Shown in pieces: positions 22,540 to 30,712 of a stretch of DNA of 64,000 bases (positions are counted from its first letter, which is position 1; every line of letters begins with the position of its first letter). This DNA is from Edaphobacter bradus (GTDB lineage Bacteria; Acidobacteriota; Terriglobia; Terriglobales; Acidobacteriaceae). A program made the position numbers and the translations under genes. The notes under the pieces were generated by a model. The model had not been told where the DNA came from and did no database searches. It saw only the letters and a program-made list of their open reading frames with translations. Location of the stretch: assembly GCF_025685645.1 (NCBI RefSeq), contig NZ_JAGSYF010000001.1:1116001-1180000 (forward strand), read 5' to 3'.

Positions 22540-22748
22540 GCCTACCTCTCCACTCTAAGCTGCTCTCGCTCCCTGCTGATGTGGACTCCTTTCCTGCGGA
22601 ATCACATCAGATACATGGACGGCCTTTCTGAGCAAACGCTCGTTCATGGAAGTGGCGCTGCTGCCCACTGCCATTTACTATGGAGGAGTGGCACCGCCGT
22701 AGGGTTGAGCGTTGCCCACTCATCACAGATTTACGCACCTTTTTTCTC

Positions 22749-23375
22749 ATGCCAGCCATCCAATCCCCAGGAACGGAAGAAGTTCACCCAGACGTAGCGC
22801 TGGTTGCGCGCGCCAAGGAGGGGGATGAAGCCGCGTTTGAGCAGCTCGTCCGCCAGTACGAACGCCAGATCTTCCGGGTAGCGCAACATATTACTCAGAA
22901 CCGTGAAGACGCCGAAGACATCACGCAGGATACGTTTCTCAAGGCCTACGAGAAGCTGGACCAGTTTCAGGGAAACTCCAAGTTTTCCACATGGCTCGTC
23001 CGCATCGCGGTCAATGAGAGCCTCATGCGGCTGCGCAAGCGCAAGACCAGCAAGACAGTTTCCATGGATGAGGACGTCCAGACCGAAGAGGGCTCTATCC
23101 CACGGGACTTCGCAGAGTGGCGCCCTAACCCCGAGCAGATTTACGACCAGAACGAACTGGGCGATATCCTGCGCAAGACAATCCAGGGGCTTCCTCCGGG
23201 GTTCCGGACCGTCTTCACGCTCCGCGACGTTGAAAATCTCTCTACAGAAGAGACTGCGGAGGCTCTCGGATTGAGCATTCCTGCCGTAAAATCGAGGCTG
23301 TTACGGGCACGCCTGCAATTGCGTGAGCGGCTCAGCCGTTACTTCCGTCAGAAAAAGGAAGGCTTTCCCGCATGA
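22749..23375 (+). CDS. ECF sigma factor, sigma-E type
   Basis: A 208-residue extracytoplasmic-function sigma factor. Region 2 is PDVALVARAKEGDEAAFEQLVRQYERQIFRVAQHITQNREDAEDITQDTFLKAYEKL, and region 4 is LPPGFRTVFTLRDVENLSTEETAEALGLSIPAVKSRLLRARLQLRERL. The insertion SKTVSMDEDVQTEEGSIPRDFAEWRPNPEQIYDQ links the two. The ATG at 22749 starts a family-like N-terminus; the frame also opens at an ATG at 22680, and neither has a strong ribosome site. The next gene, a zf-HC2 protein, overlaps the stop by four bases and is its probable anti-sigma factor. Its position just upstream of the Tad pilus genes makes pilus control possible, but that is inference. Confidence 0.92.
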   Translation: MPAIQSPGTEEVHPDVALVARAKEGDEAAFEQLVRQYERQIFRVAQHITQNREDAEDITQDTFLKAYEKLDQFQGNSKFSTWLVRIAVNESLMRLRKRKTSKTVSMDEDVQTEEGSIPRDFAEWRPNPEQIYDQNELGDILRKTIQGLPPGFRTVFTLRDVENLSTEETAEALGLSIPAVKSRLLRARLQLRERLSRYFRQKKEGFPA

Positions 23376-23617
23376 ATTGCACCGACTTTCTCAGCCAGCT
23401 AACCGATTACTTCGACGGCCAGATCAGTCCTGAACTGCTCGAAGAGGTGCGCGCACACCTGGCAGGCTGCAGCCATTGCGAGGTCGTGCTCAACACGACA
23501 CGTCAGACCATCGAGGTTTATCGTGGCAACGACATCTACGAGATCTCGACCGAACTCCGTGAGCGTCTGCACTCCGCCATCATGGCAAAGTGCAGGGCAA
23601 AGAAGAAGACTGCGTAA
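23372..23617 (+). CDS. zf-HC2 anti-sigma factor
   Basis: An 81-residue cytoplasmic protein with the anti-sigma zinc-finger pattern: an early Cys (MNCTDFLSQLTDYFDGQ), then HLAGCSHCEVVLN, where His and two Cys complete the site. No membrane segment follows, unlike many RsiW/RseA types, so it would be a soluble, ZAS-type regulator that binds region 2/4 of the partner sigma factor. The ATG overlaps the sigma gene's stop (ATGA), implying coupled translation and roughly equal amounts. The signal it senses cannot be deduced; zinc anti-sigma factors often respond to redox stress. Confidence 0.88.
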   Translation: MNCTDFLSQLTDYFDGQISPELLEEVRAHLAGCSHCEVVLNTTRQTIEVYRGNDIYEISTELRERLHSAIMAKCRAKKKTA

Positions 23618-24118
23618 GGACACTGGGCTGACCCAAGTCTCCTCGCCAAGTGGCGAAGAATCATTAGGATAGTAGCAGCACCTCGCGTGCGATCATGGGC
23701 ATTTGTGTCAGGCTTGATTCAGCGCGGGGCCCTGCTGAACCCTTGAGAAAATATTTTCCTACAAAGTGACATAGAATGCATGGTCACTTTTCCGTCACTG
23801 TCGAAACGCTCCCTGACTCCCTTGTCGAGGTCGATTCCATCTAAATCGACCTATATGAGATAGTTAGATTCGCATCTATATAACGTCTCTCGACTGAGCA
23901 ATCCGTTTCCACTTCCTCGCAATTTCTTGGCACTCAGCGTGCTGTTACGGTATTGGTGACCTTGGCTGACATCCTGTCTCGCTAGGTTCTCCTGTGCCTA
24001 CGAGCGCCTTTCCGAGTCGTCTCGGAAGTGGGTAAACTGTGTAGCTAATTGAGCGTTCGATGCATGGAGGAGTGTGGGCCCACCGTCACAATATTGCACT
24101 CGGACAAGGAGAACAAAC
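23618..24118. promoter_or_regulatory. Long AT-richer intergenic region upstream of the first Flp pilin
   Basis: About 500 bases with no convincing gene. It contains a dyad AAAGTGAC...GTCACTTT at 23763-23770 and 23783-23790 (8-bp arms, 12-base spacer), a further partly symmetrical AT-rich stretch around 23850-23885, and a small hairpin TTCCGAG-TCGT-CTCGGAA at 24010-24027. The first pilin gene is preceded by AAGGAG at 24106-24111. The dyad is a plausible operator for a pilus regulator; no promoter elements could be fixed with certainty. Confidence 0.45.
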
Positions 24119-24304
24119 ATGATGAATCGCTTCCGCTCTATCGCCTTGAGCCTACATCGCAATGAGTCTGGTCAGGACTTGATCGAATATGCTCTTGTTA
24201 CTGCCCTGATTGCCTTTGGTGCTGTCGCCGGCATGGGAACGGTCGCCAGTGCAATCAACAATGCCTTCAGCACAATCAGCTCGGAGCTTAGTTCCGCTCT
24301 CTAA
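24119..24304 (+). CDS. flp: Flp/Fap-type pilin, copy 1
   Basis: A 61-residue Flp prepilin, the structural subunit of a Tad pilus. The leader ends ESG, followed by QDLIEYALVTALIAFGAVAGMG; cleavage after Gly18 by the CpaA peptidase leaves Glu at +5 next to Tyr, the Flp signature. A hydrophobic helix and a short Ser-rich tail (STISSELSSAL) complete it. AAGGAG lies seven bases upstream of the ATG at 24119; a second ATG follows directly. A near-identical pilin is 570 bases downstream (54 of 61 residues the same), and a long hairpin lies just after the stop. Confidence 0.93.
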   Translation: MMNRFRSIALSLHRNESGQDLIEYALVTALIAFGAVAGMGTVASAINNAFSTISSELSSAL

Positions 24305-24330: not shown

Positions 24331-24378
24331 GGCAAAGTCTCGTAGCCTATCGCAAGCGATAGGCTACGAGACTTTGCC
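24331..24378. terminator. Very long perfect hairpin after the first Flp pilin
   Basis: Two perfectly complementary 23-base arms (24331-24353 and 24356-24378) separated by only AA, centred 50 bases after the pilin stop. The stem contains GGCAAAGTCTCGTAGCC at its outer end. There is no downstream T-run, so it is not a classical rho-independent terminator. It may act as an RNA stabiliser or processing site that sets pilin mRNA abundance, or as a bidirectional terminator. The hairpin is read directly; the role is inference. Confidence 0.6.
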
Positions 24379-24871
24379 ATGTTCGCGAAGGTCTCAACAT
24401 GGCAACCCTATATCCATGAGCGGGATAGTACAGTGTGCTTTCGTGTCTGCTCTTTATCTTTGCTCTTTGCCGGCTCTCGGCCGATTGACCCAGCAAAGCA
24501 ATTAAATTAATTTTGCCGCCGAAGAAGAAAAGGCGTTATCCTCCGTGTGAAAAAACTTGCTCAGTCAAACCGGGCTATCGTTCGGGGTAAGAGACCAAAG
24601 AATGATGCCAGGTAGATATGTAAATTACCGCAGGCGAGTAGTTGCATAACAATTGCTCGTGGAATTTCAGTTTATGGAAATGTCAGTTCTGCACTTTTGG
24701 CAACTCACGTGCTTCTTTAGTGGTATCGTTGCTTTGCGTCAGCACAAGCTACTTTAAGAGTCTCTTTGATGAGGCTTTTTCCGGAGTCGGCTCCGGTGTC
24801 TCACTGAGAGAGATAACTATCGTATCTCGTGTGGCCTCAAAGCCATACTTAATCTAGTTAGGAGACAAGAA
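24379..24871. other. Intergenic region between the two Flp pilins
   Basis: Nearly 500 AT-richer bases. An open frame at 24642-24857 shows no family features and no ribosome site and is not called. A small hairpin CCGGAG-TCG-CTCCGG lies near 24780-24796. The region must hold regulatory signals for the second pilin if that gene has its own promoter; GGAGAC ahead of its ATG at 24872 is the ribosome site. Confidence 0.4.
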
Positions 24872-25057
24872 ATGATTAATCGTTTTCGGTCTGCCCTCTT
24901 ATCCCTTCACAACGATCAGTCTGGTCAAGATCTGATCGAATACGCTCTCGTAACCGCACTCATCGCTTTTGGCGCTGTGGCAGGTATGGGAACAGTCGCC
25001 AGCGCGATCAACAATGCTTTCAGCACTATCAGCAGCAAACTCAGCTCTGCACTCTAA
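24872..25057 (+). CDS. flp: Flp/Fap-type pilin, copy 2
   Basis: A 61-residue Flp prepilin differing from copy 1 at only seven residues, mostly in the leader (RSALLSLHNDQSG for RSIALSLHRNESG) and at residue 56 (Lys for Glu). The mature helix, residues 17-55, is identical. At the DNA level many third-codon positions differ between the copies, so the identity reflects protein-level selection rather than a recent copy. TTAGGAGACAAGAA precedes the ATG at 24872. The Glu-to-Lys change near the C-terminus alters surface charge in the pilus. The cpaA gene follows after about 140 bases. Confidence 0.93.
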   Translation: MINRFRSALLSLHNDQSGQDLIEYALVTALIAFGAVAGMGTVASAINNAFSTISSKLSSAL

Positions 25058-25200
25058 GTTCTGAGAAACAACGCGGCCGAAATAGGCTGGCATGCTGGGG
25101 ACAACCCGCTTCAGGATGCCAGCTTATAGCCCTTTTATGCTAGGCCGTACCAGTGGCTTTCGCACGTCTTTCAAGAAGCACACTAGACGGAGAGGCTCGC

Positions 25201-25731
25201 ATGACGCAGTCGGGATTCCTGGCGGGAGCAGCTATAGTTGCCCTTTGTGGTGCCCTCTTCGATATTCGAAGCGCCCGTATACCTAATTTCCTGACATACT
25301 CAGCCATGGCCTCGGCCCTGGTCTGTCGCTTCGCATTTCTTGGATGGCGCGGGCTGGTGGATGGAACCGCGGGCTTGCTGATCGCAGGAGGAGTCTTCTT
25401 TCTCCTGTTTGTCATTCGCGCTATGGGCGGAGGCGACGTGAAGCTGATGGCCGCAGTGGGAGCCTGGGTAGGTCTTCCAAATGTTGGCCGCGCTCTTATT
25501 GCTTCAGCGCTGTGCGGTGGCCTGATGGCAGTCGGCTACATGATCTTCCTGAAGCGGTTCCGTTCTACTCTCAGTAACGTTGTTTCGCTAATCCGCTTTC
25601 ATGCCGTAATGGGAGCGGAGCCTCACCCCGAGATTAACCTCGCCAATCCTTCGGCGGTCCGAATGCCATACGGGGTCGCCATTGCGTTAGGCTCCCTCTC
25701 GCTGCTACTTCCTGGAATCTGGAAAGGTTGA
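25201..25731 (+). CDS. cpaA: Prepilin peptidase CpaA/TadV (A24 family)
   Basis: A 176-residue membrane aspartyl protease that removes the leader from Flp prepilins. Both catalytic aspartates are visible: Asp in ALFDIRSARIPN (about residue 21) and Asp in MGGGDVKLMAA (about residue 80), the GxGD signature of family A24. Five to six hydrophobic helices span the rest. It lacks the cytoplasmic methyltransferase domain of PilD, as expected for the Tad type. I start at the ATG at 25201; a 16-residue upstream extension of the frame to 25153 lacks features. It begins the block of assembly genes after the two pilins, and cpaB follows with six bases between. Confidence 0.9.
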   Translation: MTQSGFLAGAAIVALCGALFDIRSARIPNFLTYSAMASALVCRFAFLGWRGLVDGTAGLLIAGGVFFLLFVIRAMGGGDVKLMAAVGAWVGLPNVGRALIASALCGGLMAVGYMIFLKRFRSTLSNVVSLIRFHAVMGAEPHPEINLANPSAVRMPYGVAIALGSLSLLLPGIWKG

Positions 25732-25736
25732 CTCCC

Positions 25737-26561
25737 ATGGAACTTCGCCGTGTCATATTCGCGTTGTTCGTAGCTTTGCTGTTATCGGTCGGGGCTACAT
25801 ATTTTCTCTATTCTCGAATCCGCAGGATGAATACGGGCACGCCGAGTACCACTCGTATCGTGGTTGCGTCTCGCGCCCTTAGTGCCGGCACGCCTCTGAC
25901 CAGTGACGCCGTCGTCCTCGCAGAGTGGCCCGTCAGCGCGTCGATCCAGGGCGCGATCACAAAGCCTGAGACGGTAATCGGAAGATCTTTGATCTATCCG
26001 GTGAGTGCGAATCAGCCCATCGTAGACTCTGGTCTCGCGGCGGCTGGGTCAGGAATAGGCCTGTCCGTCAAGATCCCGGACGGCATGCGAGCGATCTCCG
26101 TTCGGTCCAATGATGTCGTAGGAGTGGCAGGTTTTCTGTATCCCGGATCACACGTTGACGTTGTGCTGACCTATCGCCCGGAAAATTCCCCCAACCCGGT
26201 TACAACCACGATTCTGCAGGATGTGACCGTGCTGACCGCCGGACAGACACTTGAGCCTGATCCAAAGGGCAAGGCGGAGAACGTGAGCGTCGTTACGCTC
26301 CTGCTGAGTCCCGAGGACTCACAAAAGATGGTCATGGCAGCCCAGCAAGGGACAGTGCAGTTTGTCTTGCGGAATGGAGCAGATCAAAAGAAGGCCGACA
26401 CTCACCCGCTGCTGCTTTCAGAGATGTCCGGCGGAAAACCCGTACAGAGCACACCTAGTTCGAGCGGACGTGCAGTGAGAACGGTAAAACTCGCCAAGCT
26501 TCCCGATTTTTACACCGTCGAGACGATCGCCGGAGAAAAGCATTCGGTTGACAAATTCTAA
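25737..26561 (+). CDS. cpaB: Flp pilus assembly protein CpaB/RcpC
   Basis: A 274-residue periplasmic assembly factor anchored by one N-terminal helix (about residues 4-24, VIFALFVALLLSVGATYFLY). The SAF-type domain follows: VVASRALSAGTPLTSDAVVLAEWPVS, then VIGRSLIYPVSANQPIVDSGLA, and MRAISVRSNDVVGVAGFLYPGSHVDVVLTY, typical of the family. CpaB is thought to link the secretin to the periplasmic part of the machine. The ATG at 25737 is chosen over a TTG at 25728 that overlaps the cpaA stop, because GGAAAGG lies about nine bases before the ATG. Confidence 0.92.
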   Translation: MELRRVIFALFVALLLSVGATYFLYSRIRRMNTGTPSTTRIVVASRALSAGTPLTSDAVVLAEWPVSASIQGAITKPETVIGRSLIYPVSANQPIVDSGLAAAGSGIGLSVKIPDGMRAISVRSNDVVGVAGFLYPGSHVDVVLTYRPENSPNPVTTTILQDVTVLTAGQTLEPDPKGKAENVSVVTLLLSPEDSQKMVMAAQQGTVQFVLRNGADQKKADTHPLLLSEMSGGKPVQSTPSSSGRAVRTVKLAKLPDFYTVETIAGEKHSVDKF

Positions 26562-26587
26562 CCCCGGTTTGACGAAAGACAACCAAC

Positions 26588-27994
26588 ATGAAAGCAAAAC
26601 TTTTCTTGATTTTCTTGTTTACGGTCTTTGCGTTGGCGTTTCTTAACCTTGCCTCGGTAGCTCAAACCACGAACTCTTCCCCCCAGGCCCCTCCTGCGAG
26701 CCCGGGTGTGCCATCCGCGCCGGAGAGTGAAACGGTTCATGTCCTCGTGGGCCGTTCTATCGTGGTCAACATGCAGGTTCGACTGCGCCGGATCTATGTA
26801 AGCAATCCGGCAGTTGTGGAGACTTCAACGACCACTCCTAACCAAGTTGTCGTCACGGCGAAGGCACCCGGCGCCAGCAACGTTGTCTTCTGGGACGAGT
26901 TTGGTAATTCTAAGCTTTTGGAACTCTATGCCGACATCGACGTTACGGGCCTGCGCGATGCTGTTCAAGATGAGTTCCCGGGGCAGGCGATTCAGGTGAG
27001 AGCTGAGCAGGGACGAATCATCTTGTCTGGAACGGCGAGGGACAAGGAGACCATGGACAGCATTACCAAGATGGCTCAGACGTATTCCAAAGATGTCGTA
27101 GATGCAATGCTTTTGAGCGAACCGCCACATGCAAGGCAGATCATGCTGAAGGTCCGTTTTGCGGAGGTCGACCGTACCAAGCTGCAGAATTTTGGCATCA
27201 ACATTTTCAGCACAGGAGCCGCAAATACAATCGGCACGATCACGACGCAACAGTTTGGTTCCACTACGCTCAATACTCCCCCTACAGGGACTATCGGTGG
27301 TTCTGCCGCAGGAACCTCAACGGCGTTCTCCCTAGGCAATCTGCTTAATATCTTTCTGTTTCGTCCGGACCTGAACCTTGGTGCGACGATTTCAGACCTT
27401 CAACAGCACAACATTCTGCAACTTCTCGCGGAGCCTAACCTGCTCGCAATGAGCGGATCGCCTGCTCACTTTCTCGCTGGCGGCGAGTTCCCCTACCCCG
27501 TAGTGCAGGGAGGCGGCGCAGGAGGTTTTACAGCGGTTACGATCCAGTTCCGTCCTTTTGGCGTCAGACTGGACTTCACTGGAATCATTCAGCCTGACGG
27601 CAGTGTCCGAATGAAGGTCGCTCCCGAAGTGAGCTCTCTCGACTACGCCAATTCAGTCACTATCTCTGGCTTTACCGTCCCGGCAATTTCGACGCGCAGA
27701 GCTGAAACTGAGATTCAACTCAAAGACGGCCAGAGCTTCGGCATCGCTGGGCTGATGAATTCGACGACGACCGCCCAGATGAGCAAGATCCCAGGTATCG
27801 CCGACGTTCCGATTCTGGGTCAGCTATTCCATTCGAAGTCGGACAATAATGCACATTCTGAACTTATGGTCATCGTGACTCCGACAGTTGTTGACCCATT
27901 ACAAGGCAATCCCCCCCCGCCGACTGATCCCAAGCTAGCTGAGAAGCTCTTGGATTCGAAACAGTTCGACAAAGAGGCCCACAGGCGGTGGTAA
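26588..27994 (+). CDS. cpaC: Tad secretin CpaC/RcpA
   Basis: A 468-residue outer-membrane secretin through which the Flp pilus exits. An export signal (residues 1-25) and a short Pro/Ser-rich linker precede a domain starting HVLVGRSIVVNMQVRLRRIYVSNPAV. Then come a BON-like segment (GRIILSGTARDKETMDSITKMA) and the secretin core HILQLLAEPNLLAMSGSPAHFLAGGEFPYPV with the C-terminal ETEIQLKDGQSFGIAGLMNSTT and PILGQLF. This is the usual Tad architecture. No separate CpaD pilotin gene is seen in the window. The ATG at 26588 lies 26 bases after cpaB. Confidence 0.92.
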   Translation: MKAKLFLIFLFTVFALAFLNLASVAQTTNSSPQAPPASPGVPSAPESETVHVLVGRSIVVNMQVRLRRIYVSNPAVVETSTTTPNQVVVTAKAPGASNVVFWDEFGNSKLLELYADIDVTGLRDAVQDEFPGQAIQVRAEQGRIILSGTARDKETMDSITKMAQTYSKDVVDAMLLSEPPHARQIMLKVRFAEVDRTKLQNFGINIFSTGAANTIGTITTQQFGSTTLNTPPTGTIGGSAAGTSTAFSLGNLLNIFLFRPDLNLGATISDLQQHNILQLLAEPNLLAMSGSPAHFLAGGEFPYPVVQGGGAGGFTAVTIQFRPFGVRLDFTGIIQPDGSVRMKVAPEVSSLDYANSVTISGFTVPAISTRRAETEIQLKDGQSFGIAGLMNSTTTAQMSKIPGIADVPILGQLFHSKSDNNAHSELMVIVTPTVVDPLQGNPPPPTDPKLAEKLLDSKQFDKEAHRRW

Positions 27995-28044
27995 GTCTGC
28001 GGCTTCGAATACTGATCGACCAGCAGATTACGTAGGAGCATTAA

Positions 28045-29289
28045 GTGAGGGAACAGCAAACAGTAACGACTGGCCAGCCGATGCAGGTGATCTGCATCCA
28101 TCTGGACGACGCCAGCGAAGGCGTTCTCAGACGCTCTATGAGCGGCCTGAAGGAGTTTGATCTGGCTGCAACCTTTCATCAGTATTTTGGAGAGAAAGAC
28201 GCGACTCTTGTACGCTTCATTCGAGATCACCGCCCGGATGTCTGCGTCATTGATCTTGATCGCGAACGAGAGATGTCGATGGAGACAGTGGAATATTTCA
28301 GGCGTACTACGCCGGCTTCCATGGCAATCTTTGCGGTCTCATCGAGCGTCGACTCCGAATCAATCATCGCTGCCATGCGGTGCGGCTGCACCGAATACCT
28401 GACCAAACCCCTGCAGGAAGAGCGCGTCAAAGATGCATTAGTCCAACTCGTCAAGAAGCGCAAGCAGACTGAAACACCTGCCGCCCAAGGGAAGCTCATA
28501 GCGTTCAAGGGCGTAAAGGGCGGTGTTGGCACGACGACGCTCGCGATTCAACTTGCCCATAGCCTCGCCAAGAGAGAGCATCGCACCCTCCTCATCGACG
28601 CCCACACCGACTTAGGAGACGCAACTCTTCATCTGGGTCTGGAACACCATAACTACGGCTTTTACGAACTCGTCCACAACCTTCAGCGGCTGGATGCCGA
28701 GCTACTGCAAGGTTTTGTTCTGAAGCATAGCAGTGGTCTGGACCTGCTGCCCTCGCCCGAGATGCTTGGCTCAAGTTCACGAGTAACAGGCGATTCGGTG
28801 CTACTCACCCTCAAGGCCCTCACAAGAATGTATGACTATGTCTTTGTGGATTGCATGCCAGGAATGGGAGATCTGACGCTCGCCGTATTGGAAGCCTCCG
28901 ATGAGCTCAATCTGGTCTCGAGTGCCGACTTACCGTCCGCAAGAAACCTTGCGCGTTACTCCGAGTACCTGACACGGCTTGACTATCCTTCATCAAAGAC
29001 CCGTGTCCTGATTAATCGCCGCTCGAAGAATAGCTCAATTTCTGTCGACCAGATCGAGAAGGTTCTCGGCCGCAAGGTCAGCGCAGTCGTACCTCATTGT
29101 GAAGGTGAGCTTACGGAGGCAATTAGCACCGGCATCCCAATCCCTGTACGATCGCGATCCGATCTGATGCAGATCATATCGAAGCTCGCTGACTCCATCG
29201 ATGGAGGGAACGAAAAGAAGTCGTCGCAGCCTGATTCCAGCGTGGTTCCTTCTAAGTCACGATTCGGACTGCTTCGCATAACAAGCTAG
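28045..29289 (+). CDS. cpaE: Pilus assembly ATPase-like CpaE/TadZ
   Basis: A 414-residue protein with two domains. The N-terminal receiver-like part (about 10-130) includes RPDVCVIDLDRE, where an Asp sits at the expected phosphoacceptor position. The C-terminal MinD/ParA-type domain (about 150-395) carries the deviant Walker A FKGVKGGVGTTTLAIQLA and the Walker B-like YVFVDCMPG. TadZ/CpaE localises the pilus machine to a cell pole or site. I use the GTG at 28045, since TAGGAG is six bases upstream; an ATG at 28081 is the alternative. Fifty bases separate it from cpaC. Confidence 0.92.
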   Translation: MREQQTVTTGQPMQVICIHLDDASEGVLRRSMSGLKEFDLAATFHQYFGEKDATLVRFIRDHRPDVCVIDLDREREMSMETVEYFRRTTPASMAIFAVSSSVDSESIIAAMRCGCTEYLTKPLQEERVKDALVQLVKKRKQTETPAAQGKLIAFKGVKGGVGTTTLAIQLAHSLAKREHRTLLIDAHTDLGDATLHLGLEHHNYGFYELVHNLQRLDAELLQGFVLKHSSGLDLLPSPEMLGSSSRVTGDSVLLTLKALTRMYDYVFVDCMPGMGDLTLAVLEASDELNLVSSADLPSARNLARYSEYLTRLDYPSSKTRVLINRRSKNSSISVDQIEKVLGRKVSAVVPHCEGELTEAISTGIPIPVRSRSDLMQIISKLADSIDGGNEKKSSQPDSSVVPSKSRFGLLRITS

Positions 29290-29350
29290 AAGACATATCT
29301 CTAAGGTGTTAGCTGCTGCTAGGGAGACAGAACGTAACGCGGGGTGATTT

Positions 29351-30712
29351 ATGAGCGTAGGCACAAATCAATTGCAGTCTCAGGCTGGTCCAACTCTGTT
29401 CGCGCAGAATCGCCCGGAACCGCACAGCGGCGGAATGTCCGTCAAGGCTTACCAGGAGATCAAGTCAAACATCCATCGCAACATGCTGGCGAAGGTTGAC
29501 CTTGAGAAGCTTAGCTCTCTTCAGGACATGCGTGCGCGTCAGCAGATTCTTGGAGTGATCCAGGATCTCGCATCCTCGCTGGATACGCCACTGAGCATGC
29601 TCGAAAAAGATCGCCTCTGCCGAGAGGTGCTCGATGAAGTGTTCGGCCTGGGTCCGCTTGAGCCATTGTTGCAAGACCCGACAATCAACGACATTCTCGT
29701 AAACACGCATCGTTCCGTTTATGTAGAGCGAGCAGGCATTCTCGAGAAGACGAATGTGGTCTTTAAAGATGAATTGCACCTGATGCACATCATCGACAAG
29801 ATTGTCTCAGCCGTCGGGCGCCGCGTTGATGAGTCGTCTCCTATGGTCGACGCACGCCTTAGCGATGGATCGCGTGTCAATGTCATCATCCCCCCACTTG
29901 CGGTTGACGGGGCCATTCTTTCCGTACGCAGGTTTGGGCATGTGCCCCTTGAAGCCGAGGATTTGCTCTCAAACAAAGCGATGACTTTGCAGATGCTTGA
30001 ACTTCTCAAAGGTGCGATCAAGGCGCGCCTGAACATTGTTATCTCAGGTGGAACCGGAGCGGGTAAAACGACGCTTCTTAACGTCCTCTCAACTTTTATT
30101 CCCGAAGAGGAGCGGATCGTAACAATCGAGGACTCCGCGGAACTTCAACTTAAGCAGGCGCACGTCGTTCGACTGGAGTGCCGCCCTGCCAACGTTGAAG
30201 GCAGAGGTGGAGTGCGGCAACGTGAACTTCTTGTCAACTCGTTGCGTATGCGCCCGGATCGCATCATTGTCGGCGAGGTCCGTTCGGAAGAGGCGTTGGA
30301 TATGCTGCAGGCGATGAACACCGGACACGATGGGTCACTAACAACAGTCCACGCCAATAGTCCTCGCGACGCGATAGCTCGCATGGAAACAATGGCGCTT
30401 ATGGCCAACTTGAATCTCCCTGAAAAGGCCATCCGGCAGCAGATCGCTTCTGCAATTGCGGTGATTATTCAGATCTCGAGAATGAGCGATGGAAGCAGGA
30501 GGATAACTCACTTCACTGAGGTCACAGGCATGACAGAGGACATTGTGAGCCTTCAGGATATCTATGTCTTTGAGAAGCGCGGTATTGGAGACAACCGCAA
30601 AGTGCTGGGCCGCTTCCGCTCGACCGGTGTCGTTCCCAAGTTCATTGAGAAGCTGAAGGCGTCGGGAATTGACCTTCCCCTGAACCTGTTCGACGTGTGC
30701 ATGGATGTTTAG
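29351..30712 (+). CDS. cpaF: Tad secretion ATPase CpaF/TadA
   Basis: A 453-residue hexameric secretion ATPase of the VirB11/PilT superfamily that powers Flp pilus assembly. The N-terminal half includes [23 protein letters not shown], a family hallmark. The ATPase domain has Walker [17 protein letters not shown], the Asp box [12 protein letters not shown], Walker [20 protein letters not shown] and the His box [12 protein letters not shown]. All catalytic motifs are intact. The ATG at 29351 is preceded by GGGGTGA. The tadB gene follows after 18 bases. Confidence 0.95.

Follow-up and report, generated by a model that had tools for sequence, protein, structure and literature searches.

A perfect inverted repeat of 23 bp (hairpin 1, 24331..24378, + strand) lies just past the stop codon of the first of two Flp pilin genes in the window, the 64,000-nucleotide stretch of the Edaphobacter bradus genome that we analyzed, and most likely it functions as RNA, forming a hairpin at the 3' end of the pilin mRNA. 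Such 3' pilin hairpins recur in related bacteria; this one, ordinary in kind, is a strong and unusually perfect example. The reading that we favor, and consider probable, is that hairpin 1 delimits a short, abundant pilin mRNA and protects it, whether or not it also terminates transcription.

An unusually perfect hairpin follows the first pilin gene of a Tad locus

Predicted gene content identifies a Tad/Flp pilus operon at this locus, with two Flp pilin genes followed by a prepilin peptidase and the Tad machinery. The pilin genes (pilin 1, 24119..24304; pilin 2, 24872..25057; both on the + strand) each encode 61 aa and match PF04964 in Pfam, bearing out an earlier sequence-only reading that had taken the genes flanking the hairpin to be Flp pilins (Flp/Fap). 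The peptidase gene (Peptidase_A24; TadV/CpaA; 25201..25731, +) is followed by genes for RcpC/CpaB, the secretin RcpA/CpaC, a TadZ/CpaE-like ATPase and a TadA/CpaF-type ATPase (25728..30712, +). Directly upstream of the pilins, an ECF sigma factor gene and, after it, a zinc-finger (zf-HC2) anti-sigma-like gene occupy 22680-23617. The two pilins had been described as near-identical, which holds for the proteins (89% identity) but not for the DNA, which is 75% identical and differs at 20 of 29 fourfold sites; the pilins are therefore old paralogues.

Hairpin 1 has the sequence GGCAAAGTCTCGTAGCCTATCGC-AA-GCGATAGGCTACGAGACTTTGCC, and its arms (24331-24353 and 24356-24378) show 100% complementarity and are separated only by AA, exactly as first noted. 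The stop codon of pilin 1 is at 24302-24304 and 26 bases separate it from the stem; the placement shortly past the stop thus stands, and the 27 bases given originally are the offset rather than the gap. As RNA, the innermost C-G pair beside the AA opens, leaving a GCAA tetraloop that caps 22 pairs. The 120-nt region containing the hairpin has a minimum free energy of -55.9 kcal/mol, compared to a mean of -28.8 (sd 3.5) for shuffled sequences (z -7.8), with 0 of 200 shuffles folding equally well. An Rfam search with hairpin 1 returned nothing above the gathering score, only sub-threshold matches to microRNA precursors.

To place these values we used a genome background of 644 kb, window included. 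Hairpin 1 is the longest perfect short-range inverted repeat of the window, and in the 580 kb of the remaining genome that we sampled, perfect stems reach at most 18 bp. Within 100 nt past the stop, the best stem score among 514 sampled genes, a set that includes the genes of the window but does not count the pilins, is 33, and that of hairpin 1 is 39. A scan of the 4.75-Mb genome tolerating up to 3 mismatches turned up no further copy of the 23-nt arm, and BLAST found no other copy of the hairpin there. Because its sequence occurs once, we rejected a dispersed repeat of the REP/MITE type; the many identical copies that would have spoken against a local structure were sought genome-wide and are absent, in agreement with the original view of the hairpin.

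Each pilin has its own hairpin and its own promoter-like site

A second hairpin (hairpin 2, 25082..25127, +) begins 24 nt past the stop codon of pilin 2, about as far as hairpin 1 lies from the stop of pilin 1, and forms 18 pairs (12 bp, one mismatch, 6 bp); the peptidase gene is the first machinery gene beyond it. We found no convincing sequence homology between the two hairpins. Both pilins are also preceded by sigma-54-like -24/-12 sites, putative promoters on the + strand, located at 23927..23943 (TTGGCACTCAGCGTGCT), ~192 nt before the pilin 1 start, and at 24697..24713 (TTGGCAACTCACGTGCT), ~175 nt before the pilin 2 start. The proposal that hairpin 1 causes the two pilins to be made at different levels is therefore unsupported, since the presence of hairpin 2 removes the main reason to think that hairpin 1 sets the pilins apart. 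Because each pilin has its own hairpin and its own sigma-54-like site, two similar units in tandem are a better fit.

Strong hairpins recur past the pilin genes of relatives

For comparison, we assembled a set of 96 distinct Flp pilin genes, most of them from the same genus (62 genomes searched) and a few others from its order and class. For each gene we took the best-scoring stem within 100 nt past the stop codon and called a hairpin strong at a score of at least 25. Strong hairpins follow 22 of the 96 pilins but only 8 of 514 genes of the Edaphobacter bradus genome itself (Fisher p 5e-13), and 4 of the 188 own-genome genes after which no other gene is called for at least 100 nt (p 3e-8 versus pilins); non-independence among paralogues and relatives makes both p-values optimistic. 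The same score is reached after 7 of 463 non-pilin genes in the relatives' loci. More robust than the Fisher p-values is the range of unrelated stems at one position: the strong pilin stems start 2 to 53 nt past the stop and represent several sequence families with no relation to one another, and outside the genus stems scoring at least 20 follow 7 of 34 pilins, starting 5-27 nt past the stop. Hairpin 1 itself has no convincing sequence homology to the relatives' hairpins. Roughly three quarters of the pilins, including some within the same tandem arrays, lack a strong hairpin by the score of at least 25, so the hairpin is not essential.

Some relatives (L070, L072, L134 and L138) carry arrays of 2-4 tandem Flp pilins, some or all of which have long 3' hairpins belonging to one homologous family. 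The strongest post-stop hairpin in any of the loci is a 30-pair stem that follows a non-pilin ORF of a relative (L151:1636-2100, - strand).

Stem-loops between flp genes were not described in the literature that we searched, which included few subscription papers. Hairpins of this kind are themselves known; it is the recurrence after Flp pilin genes that we did not find described there.

Compensatory changes in relatives' hairpins point to selection on the sense RNA

One family of the relatives' hairpins (GCTTATGTGAGCG...) can be aligned, comprising nine sequences from six loci in five genomes. In this short alignment, 97.4% of cells pair, a value biased toward pairing by the choice of sequences that fold. 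Two-sided changes occur at 7 of 13 pairs, a level matched by 0 of 500 shuffles, with some rows being paralogues from one genome and the events accordingly fewer than the cells. Pairing collapses when the partner is slid by 1-3 columns. Across the pilin stems, which were found by a rule treating both kinds of pair alike, the non-Watson-Crick pairs comprise 13 G-U and 4 A-C (one-sided binomial p 0.025), and an excess of G-U over A-C in imperfect stems is the direction expected of a structure in the sense RNA. Together, the compensatory changes in the relatives' family and the G-U bias point to selection on the sense RNA. For hairpin 1, which has no alignable homologue in which to look for covariation, the argument for an RNA role is one of position and kind.

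A proposed role at the 3' end of an abundant mRNA

Flp pilin is needed in excess: Tad/Flp pili require many copies of a 60-residue subunit and few of the neighboring machinery proteins. Hairpin 1, a stable stem right past the stop of such a gene, has the placement of an mRNA-protecting hairpin. We propose that it acts as RNA within the 3' untranslated region of pilin 1, where the GCAA-capped 22-bp stem would mark the 3' boundary of a short pilin mRNA and shield that mRNA from 3'-to-5' exonucleases. The boundary may arise by termination or by processing of a longer transcript, through RNase III cutting or exonuclease trimming. Hairpin 2 would be the equivalent for pilin 2, with only part of the transcription, or of the transcript, continuing past it to the Tad machinery genes, and each pilin would be started from its own sigma-54 promoter. 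The predicted outcome is that pilin mRNA far exceeds machinery mRNA. The original suggestion that the hairpin stabilizes the pilin mRNA or blocks read-through thus remains the best class of explanation, given the position of the hairpin, the enrichment past pilin genes and the compensatory change in relatives, even though its corollary of unequal pilin levels does not.

If correct, a recurring 3' pilin hairpin offers a simple answer to the problem of the pilin-to-machinery ratio in these little-studied bacteria, and 3' hairpins may mark the major pilins within tandem arrays. A broader version of the idea, which we put forward as a speculation that we doubt more than we believe, is that Flp pilins across the Acidobacteriota have repeatedly gained sequence-unrelated 3' hairpins shortly past the stop codon. 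These would be a convergent device at the RNA level, in many cases with no U-tract, setting pilin-to-machinery ratios and making tandem pilins self-contained promoter-gene-hairpin cassettes.

Hairpin 1 could instead be mainly a transcription terminator that needs little or no U-tract and acts as an insulator between pilin 1 and the predicted sigma-54 promoter of pilin 2, a possibility that we take seriously but judge somewhat unlikely. It shares with Rho-independent terminators a strong, GC-rich stem-loop after the gene (22-bp stem, z -7.8), this long and stable stem stands ~320 nt before the next promoter-like site, and the T content past pilin hairpins is mildly raised, at 2.8 of 9 versus a background of 2.0. 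The U-tract, however, is missing past hairpin 1: its tail (ATGTTCGCGAAG / ATGTTCGCG) has no T-run, as had been noted at the outset, and a consensus terminator scan makes no call there. Classical intrinsic termination is doubtful for that reason, and U-tract-independent terminators are themselves a matter of dispute.

An RNase III processing site that splits pilin 1 off a longer transcript is an improbable explanation. Hairpin 1 is long and perfect, and a perfect duplex of 22 bp, about two helical turns, has the size cut by RNase III, but the relatives' hairpins vary in length and often contain mismatches, indicating that length is under no tight constraint. That hairpin 1 is a DNA element, either a palindromic binding site, perfectly symmetric as would suit a protein that binds DNA as a dimer, or the remnant of a mobile inverted repeat, is very unlikely given that it has no second copy in the genome, that relatives have unrelated sequences at the same position and that imperfect stems prefer G-U over A-C.

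The protective role that we favor has parallels in several known systems. The hairpins of puf and malE-malF represent a class of intercistronic hairpins through which 3' protection leads to unequal gene levels. As in that class, a stable hairpin lies right past a gene needed in excess and before the other genes of the locus; here, by contrast, the gene is an Flp pilin, the next gene has a promoter-like site of its own and the protection is predicted. Protective intercistronic hairpins, with menB/menC as an example, and the stabilized papA pilin mRNA are described precedents (PMC5927463). In papBA of E. coli, RNA structures selectively preserve the pilin mRNA, as we propose here, but there the intercistronic hairpin precedes papA on the 5' side and the 3' end carries a terminator structure, whereas our hairpin is 3' of the pilin (PMC5927463). 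In the cip-cel operon of Ruminiclostridium cellulolyticum, stem-loops between the genes adjust the stoichiometry of an assembly at the cell surface (PMC10311766), a role like the one proposed here; the cip-cel stem-loops differ in being demonstrated cleavage signals within one long operon.

Sigma-54-like sites upstream of Flp pilins

The two predicted sites upstream of the pilins both keep GG-N10-GC (TGGCAC-N5-TTGCW-like), and the genome encodes the sigma-54 gene rpoN. Relative to shuffles that kept base composition only, the sites before pilins 1 and 2 (scores of 18 and 17 out of 19.5) have p-values of 0.01 and 0.03, and sites with a shuffle p of at most 0.05 precede 19 of 93 pilins, with ~5 expected. 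The pattern TTGGCA-N6-GTGCT, composed after both sites had been seen, matches twice in the window, at these two sites, with 0.03 matches expected. Genome-wide there is no enrichment of the sigma-54 motif (5 matches versus 8 for the reversed pattern), and the support for the sites is thus positional. Such a site accompanies only 7 of the 22 hairpin-bearing pilins, so the hairpin and the sigma-54 site are not tightly linked. A three-way alignment of the upstream regions with the closest relative was weakly alignable and uninformative.

Tandem flp genes under sigma-factor control have a precedent in flp1/flp2 of Bdellovibrio, which are controlled by FliA (PMC5430801); the text of that paper mentions neither 'hairpin' nor 'terminator'. 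Among the relatives, a distinct Flp subgroup (L061, L137, L141, L064, L068, L055, L071 and L124) has near-consensus sigma-54 sites (e.g. GTGGCACGACGCTTGCAT) located 40-81 nt before the pilin starts. Finally, a perfect 9-bp inverted repeat (AGGTCGATT-N7-AATCGACCT) at 23828-23852, the sole exact copy in the genome, lies ~110 nt before the predicted transcription start of pilin 1, where a sigma-54 activator would bind.
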